Under the pieces are notes generated by a model that made no database searches, was not told the origin of the DNA, and worked only from the letters and a program-made list of their open reading frames with translations. Shown here in pieces: positions 5,305-33,636 of a stretch of DNA of 35,945 nucleotides; the first letter of the stretch is position 1; the number at the start of each line of letters is the position of its first letter. The stretch is from Phytoactinopolyspora mesophila (GTDB taxonomy: Bacteria > Actinomycetota > Actinomycetes > Jiangellales > Jiangellaceae): assembly GCF_010122465.1 (NCBI RefSeq), contig NZ_WLZY01000019.1, positions 1 through 35,945 on the forward strand, read 5' to 3'. A program made the translations under genes and the position numbers.

Positions 5305-5321
5305 ATGAGGTCCTCTCCCCG

Positions 5322-10968: not shown

Positions 10969-11333
10969 GAGTCCTCCCTTGAGTTGTGATATTCCGTCGG
11001 CGGTTTTTCAGTGTCCAACTGAATCTGCGCGGATCCTATCTCGTCCCATAGCCCAATGGATGGGAAATTCTTGCGCGACACGCCTCTTCCGTAAAGGAGG
11101 CGATTCTCGCTAGCCGGCGACCCTCGGGTCCCACCGCGTCGCTTGAGCCCCTTTGGCGTACGGAGCAACGGCCTAATGGAATTGTGACGTAGGGTTGATA
11201 CGCGCCGACCCGTCACTATCACGAGCTGCTGGAGGGGGGCCGCAGTTAGAGTTGCGGTCGCCGCTGATGTCGCGCCTCGTTGATTCGTTCACAGTAAGCC
11301 GGCAAGGTCTTGTGGATCTCGTCTTCGGTGCAC

Positions 11334-11697
11334 CTAGACCTGGGTCTTCTCGTCCAGGCTGAGCACGACCGCCGCGCCCGGCGGATCGAGGCACAGGCCG
11401 ACGTCAGCGCCAGAATCCGACCCTGACCTCAGCCGGGCCCTGCTCCCTCGGTGCCGCATGCGAACGCTCGGCCAGCCCAGGAACCCCGTGGCTGCGTACC
11501 GGGAAAGCCACAGGTCCACCCGTCGACCGCGAAACCCCAGCCAACACCGCGACCTCCTTCTTCTGCCGACCCTCGGCCCGCCACAACACAATCCGCGCCC
11601 GGTTCGCCACATTCGCCGGCACGTCCCGGCTCTCGGCAGGGCCCGCAGGTCCGCTTCCTCACCTGCCGTCAACTGCATCATCCCAGTCAACAACATG
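11334..11697 (-). pseudogene. IS630-family transposase remnant
   Basis: Reading across two frames gives MQLTAGEEADLRAL, then CPANVANRARIVLW, RAEGRQKKEVAVLAGVSRST, VDLWLSRYAA and HGVPGLAERSHAAPREQ. This is the helix-turn-helix N-terminal region of IS630/Tc1-type transposases. It jumps to LDPPGAAVVLSLDEKTQV, the segment with the first catalytic Asp. The DNA between these blocks, the remaining catalytic residues and the C-terminus are missing, and frameshifts break the rest. No terminal repeats were found. It is a dead relic. Confidence 0.75.
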
Positions 11698-11904
11698 ATC
11701 ACGAAATCTACGTAAAGACACCGGAACCACAGGACACTAGGTCGCGAACTCCGTGCGCTGTGCCCGTCGCATCCCGCAACCGCCGAAACTGCTTGATGCA
11801 CCTGGATTAGCCCGCCCACCGACGAACAACGGATGCCGCCAGGTCGCCAAACCATCTGGTTCTATTGTAACGACGCCCGACTCTGCTGACAGGTTCCGCA
11901 CCGA

Positions 11905-11932
11905 CCCAAGCCCAAGCCCAAGCCCAAGCCCA
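11905..11932. repeat. CCCAAG hexanucleotide tandem repeat
   Basis: Four perfect CCCAAG units are followed by CCCA, in non-coding DNA upstream of the IS630 relic. It is a simple microsatellite-like tract with no assigned role. Confidence 0.9.
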
Positions 11933-12031
11933 CGAAAGATATACACACGAGCCACTGCGATTGATAAGAATCAACTGCGAGTCTCTTCCTCCTTCATCTC
12001 TCAAAATGAAACTGAATACGTCATGGTTAGG

Positions 12032-12904
12032 CTAGGTTGCGAGTTGAGCTTTAGAAATATTCTCAAAGAGCTTCACTGGTGCAACAAGCTGTCCGTACGG
12101 CGTTTGCTGGGCATTCATGTTGACGGCGTCGAGAAACTTGGCCAGGCCGCGGGTGACGGGGAAGTAGTGGTCCGAAGGATCGCCAACTTCCGATGCCACT
12201 ATTCCGCCCGAGCCGATCATCATGGCGCCCCACATCTCTTCAGCGCCTTCGTCTATCTTCACTAAGGACATGATCAACCGAATGGGAGGCTTGGTTTCGG
12301 TGCGGCCTATGACAGTGATGTCGTGATTAGCCTGCTCGACATGTACATCATTGCTGAACTCTGGATTTCCAAGCACTTCCATCGCGAACTCGACTGTGTG
12401 GCAGCCGTAGAATATGTGACCACCATAAGGGAGTTCGGGATTCGTTGGGCCGCCTACACTGAGAACCTGAAGCTCACCAAGGCGGCTCGCGGAATCACGC
12501 AGTTTGTCGACGAGTGGACTGAACCGCATGCCTGACGATGAGCCGACAACAACGTCCGCTTGCCGTGCGGCTTCGATGATCGCTTCCGCGTCGGCAACTG
12601 TGACTGCGAGGGGCTTTTCGATGTAGACATGCTTTCCCGCCGTCAACAACGGTACCGCGCTCTGCCGATGCAAGCCGCCATGCATGTGGCCGACAACTGC
12701 GACATCGACCCGATCAATAAGAGCACTGACGTCATCGACTATCTCCTCAACCCCACCCAGTTCCGCCAATTCGATGTTCCTTTGAGTTTGCCCTCCAGCA
12801 ATTGCCACGAAGCGGAATCCCTCGTAGGCTTTATCGACGTTGAGATAACGAACATAGTAGTCGGCGTGCGGGCAATCGGTGCCAACAAGTCCTAGACGTA
12901 ACAA
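12032..12904 (-). CDS. Gfo/Idh/MocA-family oxidoreductase, paralog 2
   Basis: A 290-residue relative of the protein at 10063-10968. It begins LRLGLVGTDCPHA and has the canonical EKPLAVTVAD motif and YGCHTVE. The start is placed at TTG 12904. It has AGGAGGAG just upstream, and it aligns residue for residue with the start of paralog 1. The ATG at 12925 lies upstream of that ribosome site. Together with the paralog and the MDR dehydrogenase it probably forms an oxidoreductase set on one substrate. It has the canonical EKP motif that paralog 1 lacks. Confidence 0.85.
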   Translation of the reverse strand: MLRLGLVGTDCPHADYYVRYLNVDKAYEGFRFVAIAGGQTQRNIELAELGGVEEIVDDVSALIDRVDVAVVGHMHGGLHRQSAVPLLTAGKHVYIEKPLAVTVADAEAIIEAARQADVVVGSSSGMRFSPLVDKLRDSASRLGELQVLSVGGPTNPELPYGGHIFYGCHTVEFAMEVLGNPEFSNDVHVEQANHDITVIGRTETKPPIRLIMSLVKIDEGAEEMWGAMMIGSGGIVASEVGDPSDHYFPVTRGLAKFLDAVNMNAQQTPYGQLVAPVKLFENISKAQLAT

Positions 12905-13116
12905 GGCTCCTCCTCTTGATTCCATCTGTTAATGCGTCATAGCAATATCGTGAAAAATTCGCGAGATCTCCAGTTGCCCGCTTGGCTCTAGGTCGTTGGA
13001 TAGCATTATTCTACGGGCGCCCTCCTCCGCCTAGGGCGTCGATTCACGCTGGCGTATTCTCCACCTGAAGTCGTCGAGATAGAATGTTTGGACGTCGCCC
13101 GCGTGGCTGGTTCAGC

Positions 13117-15147
13117 CTATGCGAGTGGTCGCCAGTAGAGTTTGCCGTTCCTTGTGGCGATGACGATCCGGCCATTGACGGCTCCGATGGTTTGTGCGCC
13201 GGTAGGCGCTTTGTCGAGCGTGGTCCATGGGGCTCGGCCTTTTGCTTCGGCGGGACGGTAGATGATGTGACCTTCGTCGGTGAGGGCGATGAGGGTGTTC
13301 CACCAGGCCTCGAGGGAGATGATGCCGTCTGCGTCATCGACGCGCTGCCATTCGGTGTCTATCAGTGCTGGGGTGCGTGCCCAGAGCGCGCCGTCGGCGA
13401 CGGCGAACAGTTCGGAGAACTTGCTAGCTATGTCGACAACGGATAGGTGAGCTTTGGCGAAGGGATGCCATGCCCTGTTCTCTGTAACGGCATGCCGCCA
13501 GGACATGCCGTCCTGTTGGTCAACAGCCAGGAGTCGCCCGCTGGTTGACTCTGTGGCCGCTAGCGCCGTCATGCGCGTGGCATCGCCGATGTCGCGCCAG
13601 GCGATGTTTTGCGGGGTGGCGTCGCGGCAGTAGAGGCGACCATCTCGACCAATGGCGAAGAGGCGGTGTTCGAACGTAGCAATCGAGGAGATGAGCGGTG
13701 CGTCGCCGATCAGTTCCCAGGTATTCGGTGAGATGCGCTGGCTGAGGCGGGTGATGACATTTCGGGTAGTATGTGGCACTGCACTCTTCGTGTCTGACGC
13801 TGGCACGCACTTGCTTGCACCATCGTCCTGGGTCGCGGAGGAGGAACACAGGCCGTTTGCCCAGTCGGTGGTGGCAGCGGTGAAGACGGTTCCGTTGCGG
13901 CGGAAGATGCCCATAGTGGCGTATCCGCCCATTCCGTGGCCGCGCCAGGAAGTGAGATCGGCGTGGGCGAGGATGGCGAAGTCTTCGGGGGTGCCGTCGT
14001 GGCCGGTGGCTCTGGGGATGCCGTCGTCGGTGAGGGTGTACTCGGCGGCGTCGGTTTCATAGCCAACGATGTCCTGTCCCCGGCCGAATGTGCCGTCGTC
14101 CTCGAAGGCGACGCCATCAAACACCCAATGCTCCGGGAAACACACTTCGTACGCGGCATCCTCCCGGCGAGCGCCGGGTCCGGTCTTGCCGAGGAACGAG
14201 TCCCCCATCGAATGCACCGCGCCATTTCGGGTACTGACGCCGGTCATAAAGTTGGGTGGTCGGTCGAGAGGTGCCGACCACCACTCGGTGGTGACACGGT
14301 CGTTCTCGACTCCGGTGAGGGGATCAAGGAGTGGGCTTCGGTAGCAGATGATCTGCCGGTCATCATCGGCGAAACGGATTTGCCAATTGCACACGTTACC
14401 GCTAAAGAACGCAACGTTACCGCCCCGAACGACGAACTCCTCGACGTTATCTCGCATTTGCTTCGACCAATACTCGTCATGCCCGACCGACAACAACAGT
14501 TGGTACCGGGACAGCAACTCAGGCTCACGATGCAGGTCCACACTGGTACAGCAGTCCACGGTGAAGCCCTCGGATTCGGCCCAGGCCAGGAAGCGTCCCT
14601 CCCACCGCTCGAAGAACTGCACCCACAGCGGGTTCGGGCGCTGGCAAGACACGACATGCGCCCGTTCGACCAGGTCATCGTTGTGTTCAGATACCTGACC
14701 GGTAGCACTGGGCGGGTCGGGAAACCCGTCATACAAACTCTTGCCAAGCATGCCCGTCGCAATCGGAGACCAACCGTTATACGCCTCATACGTGGACACC
14801 GCCACACTTAATAACATCCGGCTGCTCGGCGCAGATGCCTTTACCACAAAGAACAACCGAGTGCTCACCCCATCACCAGCGACCAAGTCTGCGGTGTAGA
14901 CGCCACTCGGCCAATCATCCGGGACTGTCAGACTGGTCAGGGTGGGCCAGCCACAGCCACGCTCGTGCGCCTTAAGCGGCGTGGCGTGCTCACCACACCA
15001 CGCCGTCTCACGGTGCACCACCTCGGCCGAAGGCACTCGTCTGATCTCGATGCCGACTTCGCCCTCGCCCTGCAAGCTGGCATGTAAACCAACCGTCTCG
15101 CCCGGGTACACCGACCGCTCCGAACAGTAACCCTCAATCGTCACCAC
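13117..15147 (-). CDS. N,N-dimethylformamidase large-subunit-like protein with C-terminal propeller repeats
   Basis: A 676-residue protein. The N-terminal two-thirds match the N,N-dimethylformamidase beta-subunit family: STYEAYNGW near 118-126, GHDEYW near 222-227, then GGNVAFFSGN and EHWVFDG. In known enzymes this subunit holds a mononuclear iron site that hydrolyses a formamide C-N bond. From about residue 475 there are five repeats of ~40 residues (W-x-x-I/V-G/D, then LFAIGRDGRLYCRD-like strands), resembling tectonin/PQQ-type propeller blades. No small subunit gene is nearby. The start is ambiguous among clustered GTG codons. GTG 15147 is eight bases after GAGGAG; the first GTG (15156) overlaps that site. 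A decayed paralog lies at about 27845-29066. The true substrate is unknown and is likely an amide. Confidence 0.82.
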   Translation of the reverse strand: MVTIEGYCSERSVYPGETVGLHASLQGEGEVGIEIRRVPSAEVVHRETAWCGEHATPLKAHERGCGWPTLTSLTVPDDWPSGVYTADLVAGDGVSTRLFFVVKASAPSSRMLLSVAVSTYEAYNGWSPIATGMLGKSLYDGFPDPPSATGQVSEHNDDLVERAHVVSCQRPNPLWVQFFERWEGRFLAWAESEGFTVDCCTSVDLHREPELLSRYQLLLSVGHDEYWSKQMRDNVEEFVVRGGNVAFFSGNVCNWQIRFADDDRQIICYRSPLLDPLTGVENDRVTTEWWSAPLDRPPNFMTGVSTRNGAVHSMGDSFLGKTGPGARREDAAYEVCFPEHWVFDGVAFEDDGTFGRGQDIVGYETDAAEYTLTDDGIPRATGHDGTPEDFAILAHADLTSWRGHGMGGYATMGIFRRNGTVFTAATTDWANGLCSSSATQDDGASKCVPASDTKSAVPHTTRNVITRLSQRISPNTWELIGDAPLISSIATFEHRLFAIGRDGRLYCRDATPQNIAWRDIGDATRMTALAATESTSGRLLAVDQQDGMSWRHAVTENRAWHPFAKAHLSVVDIASKFSELFAVADGALWARTPALIDTEWQRVDDADGIISLEAWWNTLIALTDEGHIIYRPAEAKGRAPWTTLDKAPTGAQTIGAVNGRIVIATRNGKLYWRPLA

Positions 15148-15594
15148 AGACACCACTCCTCATCAGACTCGACCAGCGGCTGCATACCGGGTCGCGGGCT
15201 CAATGCGGCACTGCTGGACTAGCGCGCTCCAAAACATGAGGCGGCTTGCCCGGATAAGACCTACCCTCAGCGCCGTCAAGATCAAATCGCGGCGTCGACG
15301 TGCCGCGCGGTACTCGCGGGCAGCCAGAAGCCGACACATCATGCTCGACCTGGTGTTCGGATCAGCCCAAGTAAAGTCTCTCGCAGCTCAAAATGAAATG
15401 CTTAATTCACTCTAGCACAGCGTGAAGTCTCTACGGCTTCAATAGATGGTTGAGAATGCGTGGTCTTGGTGCGCTCAAGCCAGCCGTACGAATCACTATG
15501 AAGGACCGATTCCGCCGCGTTCAATGCGGTCGTCCGATCTTCGGCGCACCACAAAGGGCGCTGAGATGACCTTGGCTAGCACCGATGGCGAAGG
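15148..15594. other. 447-bp gap upstream of the DMFase-like gene
   Basis: It lies between the gamma-glutamyltransferase stop and the DMFase-like start, both on the minus strand. It presumably carries the promoter of the DMFase-like gene. The AT-rich part is at 15365-15420. No gene or clear promoter pair can be defended. Confidence 0.45.
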
Positions 15595-17334
15595 TCAGAT
15601 TCCGATCCCGATCGACTTGCGGAAGACGTCCACGCCGCCGACGAGCTCGCCATCATCAAGCTGGATCCCCAGAGGCTTTGCGAGCGAGCTCTGTGTCCCT
15701 GTCTCATATACGGTTTCCACCTCGTGGCCGCGCTGCGCCAATCCATCCAACGTGTCGCTTCGAACGCGGTCATCGATCACTACTGTCCGAACCGTGGGCC
15801 CGATCGGCGCAGACGGATCGGCGCCTTCGCAGTGCAGCCGGGGAGCGCCTATCGCTTCCTGTACGTCCATGCCGAAGTCGACGATGTTAATGATGCATTG
15901 GAACATAGCCGTTACAACCCGCCGCGCGCCTGGCGCGCCGAGCGCCACGATGGGCTCGCCATCCTTGAACAGCATTACTGGAGTTGCATGTCCAAGCTGC
16001 TTCTTCGACGGGCCGACAGAGTTTGGCGTGCCTGGTTCGGGGTTCATCCACATGGTGACGTCGTACAAGTTGACGCCCGTGCCAGGCGTAACAACACACG
16101 ACCCGAAAGCCAGACCTAACGTCTGGGTAAAGGTGACAAGGTTGCCCTGGCTGTCTGCTGCGGCGATGTGGGTGGTGTCGCGTCCGCCCGGGTCTCCGGC
16201 CACGCTCGTCGGTGCAGGAGTGAGACGGGAGAACGGCCAGGGATTGCCTGGCCGGGTATGTTTGGCGACCTGGTCATCGGCAAACCCCTCCAGCAGGGTC
16301 GCCGCATACGCCTTATCGATGAGCGCATCAGCAGGAACAGTGGTTCCTTCCGGGTCACCTACATACACGAAGCGGTCTGTCCACGCCTGCCGCATGATCT
16401 CGGCGATGAGATGCAGGCACTGAACCGACCACCGATCGCGCGAGCGAAGGTCGATCTGCTCAGCAAGGTTGAGCATCTCGATCAAGGTGAGTCCACCTGT
16501 CATGCCCGATGACGTCACCAACTCGTAGTCTCTATAGGTTGAGCGCAGCCCGCTGGTGACCTCTGGCCGATACTGAGCGAGGTCGCTCGCCGAGAGGACA
16601 CCTCCCCCAGCTTGAACGTAGTCACATATGGAGTTCCCTATGTCTCCGCGGTAGAACGCGTCCGTGCCGTCCACCGCGACCTGTTCGATCGTGGTGGCCA
16701 GATCCGGCTGCGTCACTGGACGTCCACTCCCCTGGTAGATGCCGTCGGGGAACGGGATGCCATTGGTAAGAAAGATGCGGTTGATTTCGTCGTAACCCTG
16801 CAGATGCTCGAGGTGCGTCGCAAAGCTCGCAAGGTCTTCCTCGTCCACAGCAAACCCTGTCCGAGCCAACGCAACCGCCGGCTGTAATAGCTCCTGCCAT
16901 GGCATAGTCGCATGACGTGCGTGTAGCTCGGCTAGTCCAGAGACGTACGTTGGCACACCTACGGAGAGGAAGCCTCGCTCGTTTCTGGTCCCTTCGACCC
17001 CCTTCCAACCGAACATCGAGGACGATGTGTCGTACAGGTAGGGCACGAACACGTCTTCAGATAATCCCGCAGGGGTCCGCCCGTAGAAGTTGATCTCAGT
17101 GGTCTCGCCCGTCGTTCCCGAGTGTGCGAGCAGCACGCCAACCCCACCGACGCTGTTCATCGCCGTCTCACGCACCGCGGTCACGAAGCTCATCGCCACG
17201 GCCGCGTCGAACGCATTACCACCTGCTCGCAGGATGGACGCTCCAGTCTCTGCGCCCTCAATGTTGTGGGCCACGACCATCCCGCGTTCACTGCGTGCCG
17301 GGCTCTTCGCCACAAGACGTGCCGTACGACTCAT
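15595..17334 (-). CDS. Gamma-glutamyltransferase family Ntn-hydrolase
   Basis: A 579-residue member of the GGT family, whose precursors cleave themselves to expose an N-terminal Thr. That Thr is T387 here, in DTTHIAAADSQGN (386-398). Family features ERGMVVAH near 16-23 and GGNAFDAAVA near 38-47 are present. No signal peptide is visible, so it may act in the cytoplasm, unlike the glutathione-degrading periplasmic enzymes. Members also include acylases and other amidases. The ATG overlaps the maoC stop (ATGA) and has AAGGAG before it, so the two are co-translated. The substrate could be a gamma-glutamyl amide or another amide. Confidence 0.87.
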   Translation of the reverse strand: MSRTARLVAKSPARSERGMVVAHNIEGAETGASILRAGGNAFDAAVAMSFVTAVRETAMNSVGGVGVLLAHSGTTGETTEINFYGRTPAGLSEDVFVPYLYDTSSSMFGWKGVEGTRNERGFLSVGVPTYVSGLAELHARHATMPWQELLQPAVALARTGFAVDEEDLASFATHLEHLQGYDEINRIFLTNGIPFPDGIYQGSGRPVTQPDLATTIEQVAVDGTDAFYRGDIGNSICDYVQAGGGVLSASDLAQYRPEVTSGLRSTYRDYELVTSSGMTGGLTLIEMLNLAEQIDLRSRDRWSVQCLHLIAEIMRQAWTDRFVYVGDPEGTTVPADALIDKAYAATLLEGFADDQVAKHTRPGNPWPFSRLTPAPTSVAGDPGGRDTTHIAAADSQGNLVTFTQTLGLAFGSCVVTPGTGVNLYDVTMWMNPEPGTPNSVGPSKKQLGHATPVMLFKDGEPIVALGAPGARRVVTAMFQCIINIVDFGMDVQEAIGAPRLHCEGADPSAPIGPTVRTVVIDDRVRSDTLDGLAQRGHEVETVYETGTQSSLAKPLGIQLDDGELVGGVDVFRKSIGIGI

Positions 17335-17903
17335 TCCGTATCTCCTTCGACGGGATTGAGAGTCATCGGGCCTGACTTAGCCGCCGGGAAGTAGTCCTGA
17401 ACCTGCGGGGCGTCGCGCTTGTACACCATGAACGTGCGTTCCCACGTGACGCACTCGTCGCCGTCCTGGTTCAAGCCCCTGGTCCGGCAAGTCACAATGC
17501 CGGCATATGGTCTCGATTTCGATTCACGCTTGGCCAGCACAAGCGACTCCGCATATACAGTGTCGCCGACAAACAATGGGTGGGGCAGGTGGATGTGCTC
17601 CCATGAGAGATTGACGATGGCGTTTTGGCTAGTATCGCCGACACTCAAACCGAGCACCAGCGCGACAGTCAGGCCGGAATTGACGATAATCTTGCCGTAA
17701 GGCGCGCGGGCCGCGACCTCGGCATTGAAGTGGTTCTGGTTCGTGTTCATAGTCAGCAGGGTGAACCACGCATTGTCTGCCTCGTTGATGGTGCGGCCTA
17801 ACGGATGCTGGTAATGGTCTCCCACCTCAAAGTCCTCGTAGTAGCGCCCCTTCCAGCCTGCCTTTGCCCTGCCAGAGCTTCGACTCCCGGATTCCGCTGC
17901 CAT
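17331..17903 (-). CDS. MaoC-family hydratase (mesaconyl-CoA hydratase-like)
   Basis: A 190-residue single-domain hot-dog protein of the MaoC/R-hydratase type. The segment TMNTNQNHFNAEVA resembles the active-site stretch of mesaconyl-CoA and itaconyl-CoA hydratases. WERTFMVYKR near the C-terminus is also family-like. It would add water to an enoyl-CoA made by a CoA-transferase. ATG 17903 follows GGAGG at five bases; an in-frame ATG at 17939 lacks a site. Its stop overlaps the GGT start by four bases. A palindromic motif shared with the caiB upstream region lies at 17933-17951, about 30 bp before this start. Confidence 0.8.
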   Translation of the reverse strand: MAAESGSRSSGRAKAGWKGRYYEDFEVGDHYQHPLGRTINEADNAWFTLLTMNTNQNHFNAEVAARAPYGKIIVNSGLTVALVLGLSVGDTSQNAIVNLSWEHIHLPHPLFVGDTVYAESLVLAKRESKSRPYAGIVTCRTRGLNQDGDECVTWERTFMVYKRDAPQVQDYFPAAKSGPMTLNPVEGDTE

Positions 17904-17932
17904 GGCACCTCCAAGCCTAGGCTCGGTCACCC

Positions 17933-17951
17933 AAAACACTCGGAGTTTTCT
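17933..17951. promoter_or_regulatory. Candidate GntR operator, maoC side
   Basis: CAAAACACTCGGAGTTTTC is an imperfect palindrome centred on G17942, with seven of nine positions paired. It shares CTCGGAGTTTT exactly with the site before caiB (18815-18833). It lies between the divergent maoC and gntR genes. Confidence 0.45.
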
Positions 17952-18080
17952 GGTACATTAACGCCGTGGATGGAGCACCGTCAATGGATAATCATCCAAC
18001 CGATCGTGGAAGACAGGGACAATCATGTGCCTGCTCACCCGGGAGAATGACCGGATTTGAGCCCATCGAGGGATGACATC

Positions 18081-18818
18081 ATGCCGCCCGAAGAGGCTAA
18101 GGCCGGTAGCGGCACTCCCCCACTCCCGGCGTACGCAAAGCTGGCGGCCGAAATTCGTGATCAGATCGTCTCCGGAGCACTCAAACCTGGTGATCAGCTA
18201 CCTACCGAGCCTGAGCTTTCCTCCCGCTACAACGTCAGCCGGAACACGGCACGTGAGGCCATGCGAGTCCTCGCCAGCCAGGGCATGTTGCGAGTCAAAC
18301 GCGGTGTGAGCGGAGGACTCTTTGTCACCCACCCAGCACCGGATGAGATCAGCACATCCCTGCAGGCCAACATCGATCTCTTAACGGCCGGCGCCCAGCT
18401 CCCGGTGTCCGCGCTCGTCGAGGTGCGCGAAATGCTTGAGATACCGGCCGCCGAACTGGCCGCGCTCCGGCGGACTGACGAGGAGGTGGCTGTGATTCGC
18501 GCAACCCTCTTCAGACCTGACACCGTCGACACGTCCCTCATCTTCACCTACAACCGCGATTTCCATGCCGGACTGCTCGCCGCCCATAACCCTCTGCTCA
18601 CCCTTGTCGCGCAACCAGTCTTCAACATCCTCGAAGACCGCATTCTCCGTGACCGCGCGTCCGGTCGGTTCTGGCAACAGGTCGATCACGACCACCGAGA
18701 GATCCTGAGCTATGTCGAGGCTCGTGACCAGGCGGGCGCCCGGGAGGCAACCCGTGCCCATCTATGGAACCTCAAGAGCAACTACCCACGCCTTGACCGC
18801 GATAACATTGACGCTTAA
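18081..18818 (+). CDS. FadR-subfamily GntR transcriptional regulator
   Basis: A 245-residue regulator. The winged helix-turn-helix (about 20-90) shows the GntR signature LKPGDQLPTEPELSSRYNVS, then AREAMRVLASQGML. The C-terminal all-helical ligand domain (about 110-235) resembles the FCD type, which usually binds a carboxylate, often with a metal. It is divergent from maoC-ggt and 24 bp upstream of caiB. It therefore very likely controls both, with an acid substrate or its CoA ester as inducer. ATG 18081 has GAGGG eight bases before it; a TTG at 18057 is a weaker choice. Confidence 0.9.
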   Translation: MPPEEAKAGSGTPPLPAYAKLAAEIRDQIVSGALKPGDQLPTEPELSSRYNVSRNTAREAMRVLASQGMLRVKRGVSGGLFVTHPAPDEISTSLQANIDLLTAGAQLPVSALVEVREMLEIPAAELAALRRTDEEVAVIRATLFRPDTVDTSLIFTYNRDFHAGLLAAHNPLLTLVAQPVFNILEDRILRDRASGRFWQQVDHDHREILSYVEARDQAGAREATRAHLWNLKSNYPRLDRDNIDA

Positions 18819-18833
18819 ACCTCGGAGTTTTAC
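18815..18833. promoter_or_regulatory. Candidate GntR operator, caiB side
   Basis: The palindrome TAAACCTCGGAGTTTTA overlaps the gntR stop and ends about 10 bp before the caiB ATG. Seven of eight positions each side of the central G pair. The core CTCGGAGTTTT equals the site upstream of maoC. The gap is too short for a normal leader, so caiB may be read through from gntR or be nearly leaderless. Confidence 0.45.
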
Positions 18834-18842
18834 GCTTCAAAC

Positions 18843-20039
18843 ATGAAGCCACTCCAGGATGTTCGGATAATCAGCATCGAGCAGTACGGTGCTGGCCCCT
18901 ATGGCAGCCTGCACCTCGCAGATCTTGGCGCAGAAATCATCAAGATCGAAGACCCGAACAGCGGTGGCGACGTCGCCCGCTACATTCCCCCGTACGCCGA
19001 AGGAGAGGATTCCCTGTTTTTCGAAACCTTCAACCGCAATAAACGCTCGCTGTCCCTCGACATCCGCTCAGATGCCGGCCGCAAAGTATTCGAAGATCTC
19101 GTCCGTGTCAGTGACGCCGTGTACTCCAACCTTCGCGGCGATGTCCCCGCGGCACTCAAGCTCACCTATGCCGACCTCGACCACCTAAACCCGCGTATCG
19201 TGTGCTGTTCACTCTCTGGATATGGCCAGACCGGACCCCGCGCCGCCGACCCAGGATACGACTACCTCCTGCAGGGACTCGTTGGCTGGATGGACATCAC
19301 TGGCGAGCCCGCCGGCCCGCCGACCAAGACCGGACTGTCCGTCGTAGATTTCTCCGGCGGCCTTGCCGGCGCAATCGCCGTCCTGGCCGGAATCCACGCC
19401 GCAAGGCGCGACGGAGTTGGCATGGACTGCGACCTCAGTCTTTTCGAAGTCGCGCTGTCTATGCTCAGCTATCTCGCCACATGGCATCTCAACACCGGCC
19501 ATCAACCAGCTCGAACCCGCCACTCGGCACATCCCTCACTGGTTCCCTTCCAGAACTTCCAGACGAAGGACGCATGGATCGTCGTCGCCTGCGCTAAGGA
19601 GAAGTTCTGGCGCCTACTCACAAAAGCGATCGGTCGCACCGACCTTGCCAACGACGAGCGTTTTGCGACGTTCGCCGATCGCGCTCGCCGCGCACACGAG
19701 CTCACGCCAATCCTCGAAGCTGCCTTCCGAACAAGATCCAGCGCCGATTGGCTTGCCCGGCTTCACGATGCCGGTGTCCCCTGCGCACCCGTCAATACCG
19801 TCGCCGACGCCCTGAACGACGAACAGACCATCGCCCGCGGCGCCATCGTCAACGTGGACCACCCACGATGGGGAGCTGTTCAACAGCTCGCCTCGCCCGT
19901 GCACGTCGGACCACCAGACCCCAGGCATCGCCGCGCACCGCGACGCAACGAAGACTTCGAGTACATCGTCCGCGACCTTCTAGGCTACAAAGATGCCACT
20001 ATTACCGGCCTCACCACCGCTGGCGCCTTCGGGCAATAA
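18843..20039 (+). CDS. CaiB/BaiF (family III) CoA-transferase
   Basis: A 398-residue family III CoA-transferase, full length. Such enzymes move CoA between acids, with an Asp that forms the aspartyl-CoA intermediate; here this is the Asp of DPGYDYLLQG near 139-148. The N-terminal MKPLQDVRIISIEQYGAGP and GAEIIKIEDP blocks are typical. With the MaoC hydratase and CitE-type lyase nearby, it would activate a short dicarboxylic acid. It follows gntR by 24 bp. The only ribosome-like GGAG is about 15 bases before the ATG and lies inside the palindrome. It converges with asnB. Confidence 0.88.
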   Translation: MKPLQDVRIISIEQYGAGPYGSLHLADLGAEIIKIEDPNSGGDVARYIPPYAEGEDSLFFETFNRNKRSLSLDIRSDAGRKVFEDLVRVSDAVYSNLRGDVPAALKLTYADLDHLNPRIVCCSLSGYGQTGPRAADPGYDYLLQGLVGWMDITGEPAGPPTKTGLSVVDFSGGLAGAIAVLAGIHAARRDGVGMDCDLSLFEVALSMLSYLATWHLNTGHQPARTRHSAHPSLVPFQNFQTKDAWIVVACAKEKFWRLLTKAIGRTDLANDERFATFADRARRAHELTPILEAAFRTRSSADWLARLHDAGVPCAPVNTVADALNDEQTIARGAIVNVDHPRWGAVQQLASPVHVGPPDPRHRRAPRRNEDFEYIVRDLLGYKDATITGLTTAGAFGQ

Positions 20040-20085
20040 GTAGCCGGCGCGGACGCACACAAACTGCACCGTCGATTCAAGGCTC

Positions 20086-21924
20086 TTACGGTAAGACTAG
20101 CTTAGGCTTGTAGATTTCTAGCCAATGGTACAGATCCAGGACCGAGTTAATACCCGCCTTGACACCGCTCGGTATATCGCCATCCGCACTCGTCGCCTTA
20201 GATAGCCAGCTATGGTCGACCAGGTCGAAAACTAGGGCGCCTGGTTCGGCAACGATGTCGCGCGCCTGTTGTTGCAGAATCTTCACGTATGCCGAATCCT
20301 GCGTGAGCGGATATCCGCTCTTTACACGGTTGGAAATCGATTCAGGCACTACGTGCTTTGTGGCATGCCTGAGCAGACTCTTCTCCCTCCCATCAAATCT
20401 CTTAAGCCTCCAAGGAGTATTGTACACATACTCGACGAGTCTATGATCGCAAAATGGAACTCGCACTTCTAAACTCGTGGCCATCGACATCCGATCTTTA
20501 CGGTCAAGCAGTGTGCGGACAAATCGCGTCAGATGCAGATAGCACGCCGTGCGCATGTTCTGTTCCAGTTCATCGGCGTCATCGAGGTGGTCCACACTCG
20601 TCGCGGCGCTAGAATATTGGTCAGCTATATAGGTGGGTATATCAAGAGAATTCCGCAGGTCCGGATGTAACCACGCCAACGGATCGGTCATTCTCGATTT
20701 GGACATGGCCATCCACGGAAAGGTCTTCGAATTCTGAACCAAGTCCTCGCTGAACCAGGGGTAGCCACCAAATACCTCATCCGCCGACTCTCCAGATAGC
20801 GCCACGGTCGAGGTTGTACGTATGGATTTGAACAGCAAGTACAGCGAAGTGTCCAGGTCACCCCAGCCATTAGGCGCATCTCGGGCCTGAATTGTTGCGC
20901 GCCGAACCTCGAGGTCGGCCACCATGGACGAATCAAGCATTACATTCCGATGGCGTGAACCAACATGGTTCACCATATCTCGGACGTACGGTGCGTCAGG
21001 TGATAGACGGACCGATGTAGGTCTGAAGTTCGCTTCATAACCGTCGAAGTCGACCGAGAACGTCCGTAGTTCCTCACCTTGCTCGGCCAGGTGCAGCGCA
21101 GCAAGACCGGTGATCGCGCTCGAGTCAAGTCCACCGGACAGGAGGACACACCGAGGCACGTCCGCCACAAGTTGACGATGGACAACGTCTGCCATGAGCT
21201 CACGTATACGGTTGACTGTAGCCAATCGGTCATCATGATGCTCTAACGCCTTGAGTCGCCAGTACGTATGTGTTCGCGTACCGGCGGGGGTGACGGTGAC
21301 GGTCGTTCCCGGCTCGACTTCGGCCACGTTCTTCCACGGCGAACAACCTGGAGCCTTCGTCGAGGCCAACATCTCACGCAGACCGTCAGCGTCGACCGCT
21401 TTTGACGCGAGCGGATTGGCGAAAATGGCCTTCGGCTCAGATCCGAACAACAAGCCGTCACCTGTCGTATAGTAATACAGCGGTTTAATCCCCATCCTAT
21501 CGCGAACCAAAACCAGCTTTGCGTCACGCTCGTCCCAGATCGCAAATGCGAACATGCCATTCAGATACTCAGCGACAGACTCGCCCCATTCGATGTATCC
21601 GTTCAATGCGACTTCGGTGTCGCACTGAGTCTTGAAGACATGTCCGCGGCCGATCAGGTCTTCGCGCAGCTCAGTAAAGTTATATATTTCACCCGAATAG
21701 CTTATAGCAACCGCACCACCCGAGGTTTCGGCGATCATAGGCTGACGGCCACCTATAGGATCTATCACTGCCAACCGGCGATGACCGAGCGCAACGTGCT
21801 CACGTATCCACACACCATAGCCATCTGGGCCGCGACTGACCATAGTGTGAGTCATTCGCTCAACAATATTTCGGAACCCTCGGAGGTCAGCGCCATAAGA
21901 AACCCATCCAGTGATGCCGCACAC
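20086..21924 (-). CDS. Asparagine synthetase B-type glutamine amidotransferase
   Basis: A 612-residue class II amidotransferase. Translation from GTG 21924 gives Cys2 as the N-terminal nucleophile (CGITGWVS) after removal of Met. GAGGTG stands before it, which decides against the longer GTG at 21969. The glutaminase domain (1-~210) supplies ammonia. The ATP-pyrophosphatase domain has LSGGLDSSAI, adenylates a carboxylate and forms an amide. It follows the CitE-type gene by 44 bp in the same direction. In accessory clusters such enzymes often amidate substrates other than aspartate, so the gene symbol asnB is not assigned. Confidence 0.9.
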   Translation of the reverse strand: MCGITGWVSYGADLRGFRNIVERMTHTMVSRGPDGYGVWIREHVALGHRRLAVIDPIGGRQPMIAETSGGAVAISYSGEIYNFTELREDLIGRGHVFKTQCDTEVALNGYIEWGESVAEYLNGMFAFAIWDERDAKLVLVRDRMGIKPLYYYTTGDGLLFGSEPKAIFANPLASKAVDADGLREMLASTKAPGCSPWKNVAEVEPGTTVTVTPAGTRTHTYWRLKALEHHDDRLATVNRIRELMADVVHRQLVADVPRCVLLSGGLDSSAITGLAALHLAEQGEELRTFSVDFDGYEANFRPTSVRLSPDAPYVRDMVNHVGSRHRNVMLDSSMVADLEVRRATIQARDAPNGWGDLDTSLYLLFKSIRTTSTVALSGESADEVFGGYPWFSEDLVQNSKTFPWMAMSKSRMTDPLAWLHPDLRNSLDIPTYIADQYSSAATSVDHLDDADELEQNMRTACYLHLTRFVRTLLDRKDRMSMATSLEVRVPFCDHRLVEYVYNTPWRLKRFDGREKSLLRHATKHVVPESISNRVKSGYPLTQDSAYVKILQQQARDIVAEPGALVFDLVDHSWLSKATSADGDIPSGVKAGINSVLDLYHWLEIYKPKLVLP

Positions 21925-21968
21925 GCTTTCACCTCGCTGATTGACGTCCAACTTGCACGCGAGCTGCA

Positions 21969-22790
21969 CTAGTAGGGCGAACGGCCGCCCGCACGGGAAA
22001 GTAGCGTTCGCGCTCGCTCTACGATGGGCTTCCCCACGACTTCATTGTCAAATGATCCAACCGATCCGTCTCCTGCGGCCGCCAAGACCTGCTGTGCCCA
22101 GTGAATCTCCGCGGCGGACGGTGTGAAAACAGCATTAACAATGGGCACTTGCCGTGGATGAATGCAAAGCTTTCCAGTGAATCCATAGCTCGCCGCATGC
22201 TCAGCCTCGATTGTCAGATTCTTGTCTTCAACCAAGGCCGTCATAACTCCATCGATCGGCGGCGCTATGCATGACGCCGCCGACGCAAGAACAATTTGGC
22301 ATCGCGCGAAACTAAGCGCAGATAGGTCCGCGTGATCGATTCCCAATTCTCGCCCAAGGTCCGCGTTCCCGAAGACAGCCCTAGTCACGCCCGGCTCCGA
22401 GCATATTTCTCGAGCTCGAAGAATCCCTTCAGCGGTCTCTAATAGCGGGAGCACGGTGGATCCAGACGGCAGGCGACGCATAAGGTCTGCGACCTGTGCC
22501 GAGTTCGTAATCTTCGGTTGCATCACGCTGCATGGTCTGCCCGCCAGTGCTGCGACATCGTCCTCGTGCCACGGCGTGCCCGCTGCGTTAATTCGGACAA
22601 TACCCACACCGCCCTCCGCAAACCAGCACCGTATGTGTTTACGCGCTTCGGCCTTCTTCTCGGGCGCCACTGCGTCTTCGATATCCAGAACAACGCCATC
22701 GGCTCCGCTTGCGACGGCCTTCTCGAAGCGATCTGGCCGATCGCCGGGCACAAAGAGCAGTGAACGTGCGCGAGCAATGAAGTCCCACAT
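21969..22790 (-). CDS. HpcH/HpaI-CitE family lyase (citramalyl/malyl-CoA lyase-like)
   Basis: A 273-residue CitE-type protein. SLLFVPGDRPDRFEKA opens the barrel, followed by VVLDIEDAVAPEKK and PLLETAEGIL with a metal-binding Glu. NADLGRELG carries the second metal-binding acid. These Mg-dependent enzymes split or join 3-hydroxy acyl-CoAs, for example citramalyl-CoA to acetyl-CoA and pyruvate. Upstream of a hydratase product this would complete a C5 acid route. ATG 22790 lies nine bases after GAGGG. The ATG at 22799 directly abuts that site and is unlikely. Confidence 0.87.
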   Translation of the reverse strand: MWDFIARARSLLFVPGDRPDRFEKAVASGADGVVLDIEDAVAPEKKAEARKHIRCWFAEGGVGIVRINAAGTPWHEDDVAALAGRPCSVMQPKITNSAQVADLMRRLPSGSTVLPLLETAEGILRAREICSEPGVTRAVFGNADLGRELGIDHADLSALSFARCQIVLASAASCIAPPIDGVMTALVEDKNLTIEAEHAASYGFTGKLCIHPRQVPIVNAVFTPSAAEIHWAQQVLAAAGDGSVGSFDNEVVGKPIVERARTLLSRAGGRSPY

Positions 22791-23341
22791 ACAAGTCATC
22801 CCTCTATCTCAGAAGGTCTCGGTGGCCGACGCTGGCGTATCCCACCGCTCGCTTGCCATCCTGGCCTCACGCCCTGCTCACCTGACAGGGGGCGAGTTCC
22901 CGCTCTCCGGCCGTGACGAACCAAGAGTTTGTGCGTCGCCGGCAGACCGAGAGAGCCGGGTCTTTACCACATCACGCCGCTGGCAGAGTCGAACCTCGTT
23001 CGCAGTTGGGCTGATGGGGCCGGCCGGACTCCGGTGTCAGCGCCCAGGCTGCGGCGAAAACAGGCACCCTTATTTCTTAAACACCAGTCTAATATCGTCT
23101 CTCCCATGGTGCGTAGCAAAGGCTGCATCGATCTTGCCTGGGACAGCAGCCTCGCTGTACGGCTCCCATCGATGTTGGCATGGTTGTCAACGATCTCTCA
23201 ATACTACTCTCTAGGCTGCGGGTGAATTCCTAACCATCTCAGCCATGCGATGGGCGAATGTATGAATCAGAGATCCTACGCAAGGCGCCCAGAGATAACG
23301 CCGGGACCTGCCATCTTTCAGGGAGAACCGAGACTTGCGCG
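22791..23341. other. 551-bp divergent gap between the CitE-type and Eis-type genes
   Basis: It must carry promoters for the citE-asnB operon (minus) and the acetyltransferase (plus). I found no gene with family features in it. Base composition in the middle (22850-23050) is higher in GC than in the genes either side, which may mark inserted or decayed DNA. Confidence 0.45.
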
Positions 23342-24547
23342 ATGAGTGACATTACAATCCGTCCACTGCACGTTCATGAACAACGCGAGGCTTACGAGCT
23401 CGCGATGCGCGCTTACCATCTATCGCCTACCGACAGCGGATGGAAACGTTGGCTCGAGCCACTTAGCGCTGATCGCCGTTTTGGTGCCTTCCTGCATGGC
23501 ACTTTGGCAGGCGTAATCAGCGCATTCTCCACAGAACTCACGGTGCCAGGAGGGCGTACTCTCACTGTAGCTGCAACCGGTGGCGCCGCTGTACGCGCTG
23601 ATTACAGCCGGCGGGGCGTGTTAACCGCCCTGATGCAAGAACAGTTGCGAGACTGCGCCGAACGCGGCGAGAAGGCGACCTACGGCTGGGGCCCCACAAG
23701 CGCCACCCTCTACGGCCGCTATGGCAGCGGTATAGCAACAAACTCGAAGAATGTTCACATCACGTCCCGGAACGCAATATTTCGCAATGATACACCCACC
23801 GGGGGTGCAGTGCGCATGCTACGCAACTCGGACGCTATTCCACTGATTCAAGAGATATACCAGTCAGCCGCCTCATATCGGCCGGGCATGATAAGACGTC
23901 CGACCGGATTGTGGCCTGACGACCTCGGATCCACATCTTCCGAGCATAACGTCGCCGTGCATACCGGCCCGCAGGGGGACGATGGATTCGTCTTGTACCG
24001 TCCGGTCAATTTCTCCCACGACGGCCCTAACCTTCAAGCCGACCTATTTGTCGACGACTTGCACACAACAAACCCACACGCCATGAGCGACCTCTGGCGT
24101 TTTCTGACAAGTATCGATCTGACCTCAGAAATCTACGCACCGATGCGGCCGATCGACGAATTCATCGATCTAATGTTGATCGATCCGCGACAGTATCGTG
24201 TAGGCGAGGTACAAGATCACACCCTATTGCGCATCCTCGACGTTCTCGAAGCATTGGCCGCGCGATCATACCGACGGGCTAAGCCCGTTGTGATGGGTAT
24301 TGTAGATCGATTGTTCCCTGAAAACGATGGGAACTATCGAATTAGTTCGCAGGGAGTTGAGCGAACAGGTCACGCTGCGCAGGTTCGTATGGGCGTAGAA
24401 ACGCTAGCCATGATCTATCTAGGAGCGTGGTCTCCCAGCACCCTAGCAATTGCCGGGCGGATCAACGTGCTCGATGCCGAAGCAATATCGGCTGCCGACG
24501 AGCTCTTTCGACCCACAACTGCGCCGTGGTGTGGCACGTCCTTCTAA
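23342..24547 (+). CDS. Eis-type GNAT N-acetyltransferase
   Basis: A 401-residue protein with the Eis architecture: an N-terminal GNAT domain (ADYSRRGVLTALM as the acetyl-CoA loop; LYGRYGSG), a second GNAT-like domain and a C-terminal SCP2-like domain. It ends exactly in WCGTSF. In Eis enzymes the carboxylate of the terminal Phe acts as catalytic base, so the active end appears intact. Known members acetylate aminoglycosides, lysine or polyamine-like amines. ATG 23342 aligns with the family start; an in-frame ATG at 23258 would add residues with no match. It could protect the host from, or modify, an amine in the same pathway. Confidence 0.88.
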   Translation: MSDITIRPLHVHEQREAYELAMRAYHLSPTDSGWKRWLEPLSADRRFGAFLHGTLAGVISAFSTELTVPGGRTLTVAATGGAAVRADYSRRGVLTALMQEQLRDCAERGEKATYGWGPTSATLYGRYGSGIATNSKNVHITSRNAIFRNDTPTGGAVRMLRNSDAIPLIQEIYQSAASYRPGMIRRPTGLWPDDLGSTSSEHNVAVHTGPQGDDGFVLYRPVNFSHDGPNLQADLFVDDLHTTNPHAMSDLWRFLTSIDLTSEIYAPMRPIDEFIDLMLIDPRQYRVGEVQDHTLLRILDVLEALAARSYRRAKPVVMGIVDRLFPENDGNYRISSQGVERTGHAAQVRMGVETLAMIYLGAWSPSTLAIAGRINVLDAEAISAADELFRPTTAPWCGTSF

Positions 24548-25276: not shown

Positions 25277-26384
25277 CAGGGCCTCGGCAAGGTCGGGATG
25301 TCAGCTGGTCAGGAGTAGATTCACAGGCTTGAGCGGATACCAGGCGTGATGTCGGAGTGCTTGGGCGATGTTGGTGGCGCCGGCGAGGCGGTGCAGGCTG
25401 ATCGCGAGGTTGCGTAGCGAGGCCATGGTCTGCGGGCCGTTGCTGGCACGGATCTGAGAGCGATCTTCGTCGTAGGCCATATCGCGGACCCAGTGCAGAC
25501 GATTCTCTATGTACGCAGGTATGAAGCGAACTCGGCCGGCGTGACGTCGGTGACGTCGAGAGAAGTGACGGCGTAGACGATCTCGGTGCTGTACCTCTTC
25601 TCGTTCTTCTTGCGTCGCTTGCGCACGATCTGGATGGCCAGGCGAGCGTGCGGGAACACGATCCCGGCAGCAATGGTGACGATCTTGATGCTGCGCTTCT
25701 CCACCCGTCCATGCGCCTTGGTGGTGTCGGTGTGCGCGACCGGGACGTCCTTCCAGGGCAGCTCGGCCAGCTGGGCGTACAGCTCCGGCTGGTTCCGGAT
25801 GACGGTGAGCAGGTAGTGCGCGCCGCCTCGTTCGAGCACCATGTAGTCGGCATGAGACCGCTGCGCGTGGAGGGCATCGGCCGTGAGGACGGCGCTCTCG
25901 AGGTCATCGATGGTGTCCAGCAGCTGCGAGAAACATTGAGATCTCGTTGGTCGTCGTCGCCACGTGACGCTGCGCCAGTACGACGCCGTGACCAGTATCG
26001 ATCGCCGCGAGCAGATGCACACGGCGCTCACCGTCGGCGCCGACACGAGCACCGCGCAGGCTCTTGCCGTCCACCGCGACCGACACACGATCGCGGCGAC
26101 GGGGTGGCGCACACCGCGTCGTTTGCGTGGGTCCGGCACCGCGGCCAGCACATCCACCAAACCACCCAGAGCGCGGCAGCGATCGACAGCGCTCACCAGG
26201 TGGTCAACTGCAGGATGGATCGGCGATGACGTGAACGCAGGCATGGCTCCTCGTCGATGATCATTAGGCGCAAGGAACCTTCATGATCACCACAGGAGTC
26301 ACGCCTGCCCCAGCATTCTCACCCGCGTGTCGCCCACATCACCGCAGATCAGCCCCGAGCACCGACGATTTTGCCGAGGCCCTG
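25277..26384 (-). mobile_element. ISAs1-family insertion sequence, copy 2 (non-autonomous)
   Basis: An 1108-bp copy of the element at 111-1218, offset by exactly 25166 bp, in the same orientation and with its own 10-bp duplication. No difference was seen over the first ~1087 bp, including the transposase lesions. The right end differs: four substitutions fall in 26364-26370 (GACGATT in place of CGCGACC), so its right repeat matches the left one at 17 of 19 positions only. Confidence 0.93.
25301..26244 (-). pseudogene. ISAs1-family transposase, frameshifted and internally deleted (copy 2)
   Basis: It is the same as the transposase relic of copy 1, with the deletion/shift before VAVDGKSLRGA, the extra T before QLLDTIDDL and the stop before IENRLHWVRD all retained. 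The shared lesions show that the broken form itself was copied. Confidence 0.9.
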
Positions 26385-26513: not shown

Positions 26514-27542
26514 CTACTCAGCATCTCGCCAATCAATGACTATACCGTTGAGACGATCGCGATCACGGCCAAATAGCTCGTTGTATACATCTGCGGCCTC
26601 ATTCCAGTTCACCTTATGAGTTATCAGCGGACCTATGTCGATAATACCTGTCGAAAGCATACGTAGAGTGTGTTCAACATTCTTTGCGTCACCCACGCCG
26701 TGGGCGAATATCCATCGAATTTCCTTAAGATGAGGCTCTTCAATGTCAAACGTAATCCCCTCGACCGCATTGCCGCCGACCCAGATGAACGTACCTTCCG
26801 ATCGCACGCATCTGAGCGAATCTTTTATTGACACGTTTGCAGTGTGGAGAACCGTATCCACTCCGTCGGGAAAGCGCCCAGCGAGCTGCTCCGACGGAAG
26901 GGACGCGGCTGCGTCGATGATCCAATCAACGCAGTGCGTCGAGGAGATAGCGATCTTCTCCTTAGATATCTCTGTGCCAATCACGTAAGCACCACGCAAT
27001 CTCGCCAGCATGGCTGTAAGCTGACCGACCAGTCCTTGGCCGACAATCATAACCGATTGACCACTTTGAATGCCGGCTCGGTTGAGAAAATGTGCTCCAG
27101 CAGAGCACATCACGAAGAGTGATGCGCTGGCTAGATGGTTATCGGAGTCAAGTTTGTAGACAGAGCTAGCGCTGGCGACAAGGTATCGCTGATGCGTACT
27201 CGTAGTGAATACAGCGACAACGTCACCTACGCCCAGCGTGGAGTCAGGCTCATCGTCGCCAAGTGCGGCAATACGGCCTACAGCTTGGTAGCCGGGAACG
27301 TATGGCGGAGGTCCCCATGCATCCAAAGAGGCGGGAATCTTGCGCATTGCCGCAAACGTTTCTGTGCCAACGCTGACGCCCGAATAGTCGACTCGCACCA
27401 GAACCTGACCCTGCCCAGGAACCGGCACGGGGCGGCGACGCAGCTCAGCGTGGCATATGTCGGTGACCTCAAGCGCATGTGCATCACTAGGGACATCCGC
27501 AGCGGATGAAAATGCGCTCTTCGAAGAAGTGGACTCACTCAC
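26514..27542 (-). CDS. MDR-family dehydrogenase without zinc ligands, paralog 2
   Basis: A 342-residue paralog of the protein at 8659-9696, sharing DYSGVSVGTE, PYVPGYQAVGRI, VGQGLVGQ with LARLRGAYVIGTE, and a C-terminal GLNG/RLNG-VVIDWR ending. It too lacks the Cys ligands of zinc alcohol dehydrogenases. The start is GTG 27542 with only a weak GAGCC site, so expression may be low. It stands directly downstream of the decayed DMFase-like gene, mirroring the order in the intact cluster. The 119 bp on its 3' side end at IS copy 2. Confidence 0.82.
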   Translation of the reverse strand: MSESTSSKSAFSSAADVPSDAHALEVTDICHAELRRRPVPVPGQGQVLVRVDYSGVSVGTETFAAMRKIPASLDAWGPPPYVPGYQAVGRIAALGDDEPDSTLGVGDVVAVFTTSTHQRYLVASASSVYKLDSDNHLASASLFVMCSAGAHFLNRAGIQSGQSVMIVGQGLVGQLTAMLARLRGAYVIGTEISKEKIAISSTHCVDWIIDAAASLPSEQLAGRFPDGVDTVLHTANVSIKDSLRCVRSEGTFIWVGGNAVEGITFDIEEPHLKEIRWIFAHGVGDAKNVEHTLRMLSTGIIDIGPLITHKVNWNEAADVYNELFGRDRDRLNGIVIDWRDAE

Positions 27543-27844
27543 GATTGGCTCACAACCCTTCGAGCTGGAGGGGAATTCTAGATGGAGTTTTCTGACGCGT
27601 GGACTGCCCGCCTATCGCAGGACGTCAACTACCGCCCCTCTTTAGCTATTCTCGACCAGGTTCACCAGAGCGGCTAGCTGCTCGCAATGCATTAGGGGAC
27701 GCGTTGGAGGCTGCTTGTTTAGTGATTGGTCAAGGCGGGTTGTTCAATAAGATCGTATAGTACAAATTCCATCGCGCATAGGAGTCGACTCTAACCTTGC
27801 TTTGTCAGTCACCCGCTCTGATCATACGATAACCTGGGGCAATG

Positions 27845-33621: not shown

Positions 33622-33636
33622 TGAGATGAGATTGCT

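Follow-up and report, generated by a model that had tools for sequence, protein, structure and literature searches.

In the actinomycete Phytoactinopolyspora mesophila, six neighbouring genes join a set of enzymes for coenzyme A (CoA) esters of small dicarboxylic acids to two enzymes of amide chemistry. The genes occupy positions 15595-22799 of the DNA analysed here, a stretch of 35,945 nucleotides (NCBI RefSeq assembly GCF_010122465.1, contig NZ_WLZY01000019.1, positions 1 to 35,945; hereafter the window) from a genome of 6.5 Mb in 27 contigs. They encode a MaoC-type hydratase, a CaiB-type CoA-transferase, a CitE-like lyase, a GntR/FCD regulator, a hydrolase of the gamma-glutamyltranspeptidase (GGT) family and an AsnB-like amidotransferase. 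The locus appears to be a local variation on a pathway of a known kind, since related genomes keep the three-enzyme core and not the amide partners. We tentatively interpret it, with a probability of about 0.4, as an acquired, GntR-regulated route for the use of a short branched dicarboxylic acid, most likely a C5 acid, that is held as an amide. If so, it would be a dicarboxylate-CoA breakdown route that is supplied with acids bound as amides, equipped with a GGT relative that has departed from gamma-glutamyl chemistry and with an amidotransferase of a specialised-metabolite type.

Gene content and arrangement

Gene calls were checked against Pfam cut-offs and NCBIfam equivalog models. The six genes, and the overlap between two of them, are as follows.

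15595..17334, minus strand: non-canonical GGT-family Ntn-hydrolase (PF01019, 382 bits, E 5e-114; Thr387 in a DTTH motif)
17331..17939, minus strand: MaoC-type enoyl-CoA hydratase, RipB/Ich-like but below the equivalog cut-off (PF01575, 56 bits; PF19315, 78 bits)
17331-17334, minus strand: four-base ATGA overlap of the MaoC stop and the GGT start, read from the sequence
18057..18818, plus strand: GntR/FCD transcription regulator (PF00392 and PF07729), divergent from MaoC
18843..20039, plus strand: CaiB-type (family III) CoA-transferase, dicarboxylate type (PF02515, 405 bits, E 3e-121)
20086..21924, minus strand: AsnB-like ATP-dependent carboxylate amidotransferase (PF00733, 277 bits; PF13537, 149 bits)
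21969..22799, minus strand: CitE-like CoA-ester lyase (PF03328, 118 bits, E 5.8e-34)

The initial annotation had described five of these as an interleaved set, and the GGT, MaoC, CaiB, AsnB and CitE genes are indeed all there, as open, full-length frames that exceed their Pfam cut-offs. It was also right that the GGT start overlaps the maoC stop, an arrangement that likely reflects translational coupling, and that AsnB lies in line behind the lyase on the same strand. The gap between the latter two is about 44 bases if AsnB starts at the GTG at 21924, which we prefer to the listed open reading frame start at 21969 because the conserved N-terminal Cys follows this GTG. MaoC itself possibly starts 12 codons further in. 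Since CaiB and GntR (24 bases apart) are on the plus strand and the other four genes on the minus strand, the set is better described as three short transcription units (MaoC-GGT, GntR-CaiB and CitE-AsnB) than as a single interleaved operon, and the earlier description had omitted the regulator. The MaoC-GGT and GntR-CaiB units are divergently oriented, and CaiB and AsnB point towards each other. A candidate operator motif shared by the regions before MaoC and before CaiB, CTCGGAGTTTT, was dropped because its three matches (with at most two mismatches) are not above chance: 1.8 matches are expected, 27 of 100 shuffled sequences reach three, and no such sequence lies before CitE.

Conservation of the three-enzyme core

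Loci in other genomes (L-numbers; genomes carry G-numbers) were fetched around the best MaoC and CaiB matches and plasmid hits, 49 in all, and searched with the window proteins. At E <= 0.001, MaoC has matches in 83 of 118 relatives, a count that includes the own genome, where the window protein is the only match; the nearest others are 75-76% identical and include proteins of Nocardia transvalensis and Nonomuraea, and a scan of genome contigs with MaoC gave six loci. CaiB has matches in 31 of 393 genomes of the class at 1e-100, again counting the own genome. The two genes lie within 4 kb of each other (CaiB at >=55% identity) in 23 of the 49 loci, and their pairing is therefore not a matter of chance. 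CitE accompanies the pair in 18 of the 23, GntR in 13 and both in 12; GntR (37-53% identity) was found in 14 of the 49 loci, all but one of them with MaoC and CaiB. Neither GGT nor AsnB was found in any of 58 relatives' loci, comprising these 49, seven CitE loci (L185-L191) and two CaiB loci (L202 and L203); eight of the 49 are shorter than 12 kb (L044, L045, L052, L053, L100 and L108-L110), so that absence there means little, and the other 41 extend only about 9-10 kb per side. Conservation of the five-gene neighbourhood in other genomes, which had been put forward as a check, thus fails for the amide enzymes and holds for the core alone.

The relatives' loci are of two main kinds. Those of the first, kind A, have the order GntR, MaoC, LLM (in some), CaiB, MmgE/PrpD, then in some RidA, a MaoC-like gene and a thiolase, and finally FadE and CitE, the last 35-40% identical to the window protein. 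They resemble the window (for example L042, L087, L096 and L165) in MaoC (58-75%), a full-length CaiB (61-66%) and, where present, GntR (37-47%), and differ in that the window has no MmgE, FadE, LLM, RidA or thiolase gene beside the set. The Ict CoA-transferase of Pseudomonas and Cupriavidus belongs to the CaiB family. Kind A loci are similar to the itaconate-methylsuccinate cluster of these bacteria (ict, ich, ccl, mcd and mmgE), as an excerpt of PMC12290011 describes it; the window likewise has its genes for a CoA-transferase, a hydratase and a CitE-type lyase in a span of about 7 kb, but it lacks mcd and mmgE, is divided into three units and has GntR, GGT and AsnB in addition. Because methylsuccinate isomerases are almost confined to Pseudomonadota (96.2%, according to the same excerpt), the actinobacterial MmgE genes may act otherwise. 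The P. mesophila genome has no MmgE/PrpD match, and cis-aconitate decarboxylase and methylsuccinate isomerase were accordingly rejected as feeders of the route.

The second kind, kind B (L046, L047, L051, L163, L166 and L185), shares with the window a clade of CitE (49-66% identity) together with CaiB, MaoC or both. In place of GGT and AsnB, five of these six loci (not L046) have a PapA-type acyltransferase gene, which Pfam detected in L047, L166 and L185 and tblastn, at 35-38%, in L051 and L163. Four of the six (L047, L163, L166 and L185) have an S15/CocE hydrolase. As a set, these actinobacterial loci combine the cassette with enzymes that make and enzymes that break bonds. The clade is not tied to the cassette, since CitE proteins of 47-55% identity occur in loci of other families (L186-L191) where no MaoC match is found and CaiB is at most distant (27-30%). 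In the own family, all five genomes with this CitE (P. mesophila, G006, G010, G016 and G020) have the same NTP-transferase gene at most 7 kb away, and seven other members have the NTP-transferase gene and no CitE at 1e-60.

Phylogenetic trees place CitE, MaoC and AsnB with different relatives, and the gene set is therefore probably a mosaic. CitE groups with L046, L047, L163 and one L166 copy (support 97/95) and, within these, with L046 and L047 (92/95), in keeping with kind B, and L167 is a further locus with which it groups; L051 and L185 were left out of this tree. MaoC falls with kind A, nearest to Nocardia-type proteins in a weakly supported region, and the placement of CaiB is unresolved. 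AsnB groups weakly (92/87, 93/88, then 91/91) with proteins of G015, G021, G019 and G017, and then with one from Streptomyces cadmiisoli.

An altered pocket in the GGT-family hydrolase

The window protein shares with gamma-glutamyltranspeptidases the family and the catalytic Thr in a TTH motif, Thr387, which aligns with residue 1 of the solved small subunits; it shares neither their substrate contacts nor the PLSSMXP motif, which is absent. Its score against the equivalog model TIGR00066 is slightly under the cut-off (345 bits against 357.85). Compared with Escherichia coli GGT (contact numbering from an excerpt of PMC6769717), the substitutions are Arg114>Tyr, Asn411>Gly, Gln430>Val, Asp433>Trp, Ser462-Ser463>Gly-His and Gly484>Ala. 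With most residues that contact the gamma-glutamyl group lost, specificity for gamma-glutamyl compounds is unlikely to judge by the alignment, contrary to what had been proposed for the substrate, and the protein is likely an amide hydrolase with an altered pocket. The parts of PMC8062742 that bear on this describe extremophile GGTs that also lack the Arg and the Ser pair, and an E. coli D433N variant that acts on the C5 dicarboxylic acid amide glutaryl-7-ACA, and does so better when combined with Y444A and G484A.

At a strict threshold (E <= 1e-90), the only match in the 393 class genomes is that of the own genome. P. mesophila has two further GGT-family genes, of which the copy on contig C3 retains the SSM motif and the RETAPA stretch. 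A similarly altered GGT (33%) occurs in Variovorax, near an M20 hydrolase, an amidase and tripartite-transporter binding proteins. A single-sequence structure prediction of the window protein was discarded (pLDDT 33).

A specialised AsnB-like amidotransferase

The closest solved relative of the window AsnB is 7ylz, by its name a hydroxyamidotransferase of the TsnB9/SaHAT kind (640 bits, E 2.7e-191), far ahead of E. coli AsnB (134 bits, E 4.5e-38). These similarities place the protein in a specialised carboxylate-amidating group distinct from housekeeping AsnB; it also exceeds the cut-off of TIGR01536 (465.8 against 267.1 bits), a model that probably covers specialised members too. SaHAT itself (WP_313772113, in L169) is 48% identical, and other actinobacterial and rhizobial proteins are closer, at 53-59%. 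As excerpted, PMC13418202 reports that SaHAT converts free benzoic acid with ATP to the hydroxamate and does not use benzoyl-CoA, and PMC5719088 proposes that the AsnB-like MatC/ActJ make alkyl-succinic acid hydroxamates. We considered a hydroxamate product because of 7ylz and downgraded it: unlike the TsnB9/SaHAT systems, the own genome has no match to the AurF family (PF11583; TsnB7-like), and an ordinary amide is for this reason the likelier product.

Twenty-six AsnB loci were searched with three amidases. A PF01425 amidase directly adjoins AsnB in four of them (L143, L144, L145 and L157), which are all four of the own-family AsnB loci fetched. Within the family AsnB has matches in five other genomes, the match in G018 (45%) being the one whose neighbourhood was left out of the four. 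Since L143 and L144 share one arrangement, three independent arrangements are represented. Each of the four genomes has 8 to 13 amidase matches among those listed, and such adjacency would rarely arise by chance. In the window, AsnB may make or remake an amide. A different locus, on a plasmid of S. cadmiisoli (L037), also combines AsnB, CaiB and C5-acid chemistry: two Gfo/Idh genes and a radical-SAM/B12 gene precede AsnB (54%), which is followed by an annotated citramalate synthase, CaiB (32%) and a P450.

Hydrolases beside the cassette in relatives

The idea that an amide is cleaved and its acid then activated, hydrated and split receives partial support from relatives, in which hydrolases lie beside six of the 23 MaoC-CaiB cassettes and in some other loci. 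An amidase with hydantoinase A/B occurs in four (L048, L092, L095 and L165) and S15/CocE in two (L047 and L166); in L088 a distantly related amidase (44%) stands about 7 kb off. The remaining 16 cassettes, or 17 if L088 is discounted, have none of the hydrolases searched for, in a search with few query proteins that other hydrolase families would escape. A hydrolase beside the cassette is thus a pattern of some lineages and no rule. S15/CocE genes are also found in L163 and L185, which carry CitE and a distant CaiB. In L202 (G021) and L203 (G017) a CaiB relative (51-53%) adjoins an amidase, with a four-base overlap in L202. The combination of the kind A cassette with hydantoinase and amidase genes suggests a dicarboxylate route fed by cyclic imides or amides in actinobacteria. 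A few searches of open-licence literature found no description of amide, GGT, AsnB, hydantoinase or PapA-CocE genes paired with MaoC-CaiB-CitE or C5-acid genes.

The hydantoinase A/B proteins of L048, L092 and L095 are 88-95% identical to those of L165, and the amidases 65-72%. A PucR-type regulator and ABC importer ATPases lie near the CaiB-amidase pair of L202 and L203, and L203 was confirmed to hold an S9 peptidase and an enzyme of the enolase superfamily.

Substrate of the core enzymes

Most likely, a small branched dicarboxylic acid is linked to CoA by CaiB, hydrated by MaoC and split by CitE. The initial annotation had named the three activities of itaconate and mesaconate breakdown; the families are those of the Ict/Ich/Ccl-type route for C5 dicarboxylates (PMC12290011, in excerpt), but itaconate and mesaconate are candidate substrates only, as all equivalog cut-offs are missed. 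MaoC scores 181.9 bits against the RipB/Ich model NF038241 (cut-off 340), compared with 153, 181 and 203 bits for the MaoC proteins of L055, L107 and L166. CitE scores 156 bits against RipC/Ccl (cut-off 375), and controls reach 148 (another CitE of the own genome), 152 (L055), 149 (L163) and 246 bits (L054). As control paralogues score like the window CitE, we rejected the RipC_Ccl score as a substrate test, and the NCBIfam models do not decide the substrate. CaiB is below the cut-offs for mesaconate CoA-transferase (230 against 700 bits) and for succinate-glutarate CoA-transferase (254 against 750), the latter being its best NCBIfam match; none of its seven NCBIfam matches is named for a CaiB-type itaconate transferase. 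A C5 dicarboxylate is a likely substrate, and itaconate or mesaconate a possible one.

Solved structures lead in more than one direction. CitE is closest to 9nzb and 8khl, named acyl-CoA lyase beta chain (165 bits) and which we take to be citramalyl-CoA lyases, followed by 6aq4 (129 bits), named citrate lyase subunit beta-like and presumably Rv2498c. CaiB is nearest to 10uh, a formyl-coenzyme A transferase, and to 9br6, a succinate-hydroxymethylglutarate CoA-transferase that we assume to be human SUGCT; the Asp in the GLSVVDFSGG stretch of the window CaiB, presumably the catalytic one, aligns with an Asp in the nearest solved relatives.

A cassette for another acyl-CoA, for example of the glutarate, 3-methylglutaconyl or 3-hydroxy-3-methylglutaryl type, would be compatible with any other explanation of the locus. 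The top CaiB score for succinate-glutarate CoA-transferase, 6aq4 and 9br6 among the close solved relatives, and the near-equal RipC_Ccl scores of the L055 and window CitE all speak for it. We nevertheless think it rather unlikely: the window MaoC is nearer to RipB/Ich than that of L055 (182 against 153 bits), whose MaoC and CitE we take to be a pair of the leucine-breakdown type, and the best solved matches of CitE are the presumed citramalyl-CoA lyases. A second CaiB and a second CitE of the own genome lie near each other on contig C6 (L174, 9056-11870).

Use of an amide-bound acid and competing explanations

In the route that we infer, the GGT-type Ntn-hydrolase would cut an amide to free a dicarboxylic acid, to which CaiB would transfer CoA, probably from succinyl-CoA. 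MaoC would hydrate the enoyl-CoA (or dehydrate the hydroxyacyl-CoA), and CitE would cleave the 3-hydroxyacyl-CoA, yielding acetyl-CoA together with a 2-oxo acid. GntR/FCD may sense an acid or a CoA ester and govern MaoC-GGT and GntR-CaiB, the two divergent units. The AsnB-like enzyme would form a primary amide from a free carboxylate at the expense of ATP and, most likely, of glutamine, and may thereby make or remake the amide that the hydrolase opens, for storage, detoxification or export of excess acid.

Several observations favour this use of an amide-bound acid: the conserved core, the hydrolases beside some cassettes, the MaoC-GGT overlap, the Asp433>Trp and Gly484>Ala changes in GGT, the adjacency of AsnB and amidase in the family, the use of free acid rather than CoA ester by SaHAT, and the lack of AurF. 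A number of others weigh against it. None of the 58 relatives' loci contains GGT or AsnB, and most cassettes have none of the hydrolases searched for; the residues for the distal carboxylate (Arg114 and Ser462/463) are lost as well in GGT; AsnB spends energy on a reaction for which a route of breakdown alone has no use; no importer gene was seen inside the six-gene set; the itaconate cut-offs are missed while control CitE paralogues score alike; and MaoC, CitE and AsnB have different nearest relatives, in the manner of a mosaic.

Two rivals are serious. In the first, the genes would work in the building direction as a small specialised-metabolite cluster, in which an unsaturated or methyl-branched dicarboxyl-CoA would arise through CitE and MaoC, CaiB would set the acid free or exchange it, AsnB would protect a carboxyl group as the amide, and GGT would trim or deprotect the product. 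The CitE does resemble those of the PapA-type acyltransferase loci (L047, L166, L185, L051 and L163), of which L166 also has an aminotransferase along with an annotated lysine 2,3-aminomutase gene, and L051 an Eis-like GNAT and DMFA2_C gene pieces; relatives of AsnB lie near phenazine-type genes (L035), TsnB genes (L169) and the citramalate synthase and CaiB of L037. However, the 30 open reading frames of the window that were scanned with Pfam have no match to a carrier protein, NRPS, PKS, glycosyltransferase or PapA, and the FCD-GntR control and the amidase and hydantoinase settings of four relatives fit breakdown, so that we doubt this direction.

In the second, the neighbourhood would be fortuitous, a mosaic island whose dicarboxyl-CoA cassette, GGT hydrolase and AsnB came together without a common function. 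Such an origin would agree with the low G+C content of the stretch, with the repeat and integrase described below, with the lack of close copies in four genomes of the same genus, with the differing nearest relatives of the proteins and with the absence of GGT and AsnB from related loci. It would leave aside the ATGA overlap and the 44-base CitE-AsnB gap, which suggest co-expression, and the recurrence of hydrolases beside some CaiB relatives and of amidases beside the family's AsnB relatives; we regard it, too, as doubtful. A make-and-break amide system for a short branched dicarboxylic acid under one GntR, in which AsnB amidates, GGT reopens the amide and CaiB-MaoC-CitE carry the acid to (or from) acetyl-CoA and pyruvate, with the sister loci doing likewise through PapA-type ester makers and S15/CocE hydrolases, is in our view improbable.

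An apparently acquired stretch and its surroundings

Returning to the origin of the six-gene stretch, it has apparently been acquired. Over 6.5-31 kb the G+C content is 58.9%, whereas two stretches elsewhere in the genome have 67.1% and 67.6%. Among four genomes of the same genus, MaoC has weak matches in three (E 2.8e-5 to 3.4e-4) and none in the fourth, and there is no CaiB at 1e-100, GGT at 1e-90, AsnB at 1e-150 or CitE at 1e-60, in searches that scored three to six candidates per genome and that weaker homologues may escape. An exact direct repeat of 300 bases lies at 111-410 and 25277-25576.

Each repeat copy is overlapped by an open reading frame (341-1078 and 25507-26244); the two share a weak transposase-associated match that does not reach the cut-off, and a phage-type integrase gene (34792-35820) lies close to the contig end. 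An Eis-like GNAT gene with an SCP2_2 domain (23258-24547) adjoins CitE; a distant relative (25%) stands directly before MaoC-CaiB in L051 (8543-9556), a locus that also has pieces of a DMFA2_C gene. The regions 8659-15156 and 26514-29053 hold a doubled gene set: ADH1 and ADH2 are 42% identical, Gfo1 and Gfo2 48%, and the DMFA2_C-type amidase-like gene at 13117-15156 has a second copy at 27964-29053 that is broken into pieces (mostly 34-41%). These Gfo/Idh, ADH and DMFA-like genes were rejected as members of the route, as they have no close homologues in the 49 relatives' loci; the DMFA protein has none in a larger locus set either. Genes of the sulfate-activation type (30826-34548; a PAPS_reduct domain, a GTPase/APS-kinase fusion and a TauE exporter) flank the low-G+C stretch on one side, and a further PAPS_reduct gene (7074-7901) lies on the other. 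At 1358-6956, consecutive genes for a molybdopterin oxidoreductase, a 4Fe-4S/NrfD fusion and an NUBPL-type protein form a respiratory oxidoreductase unit.

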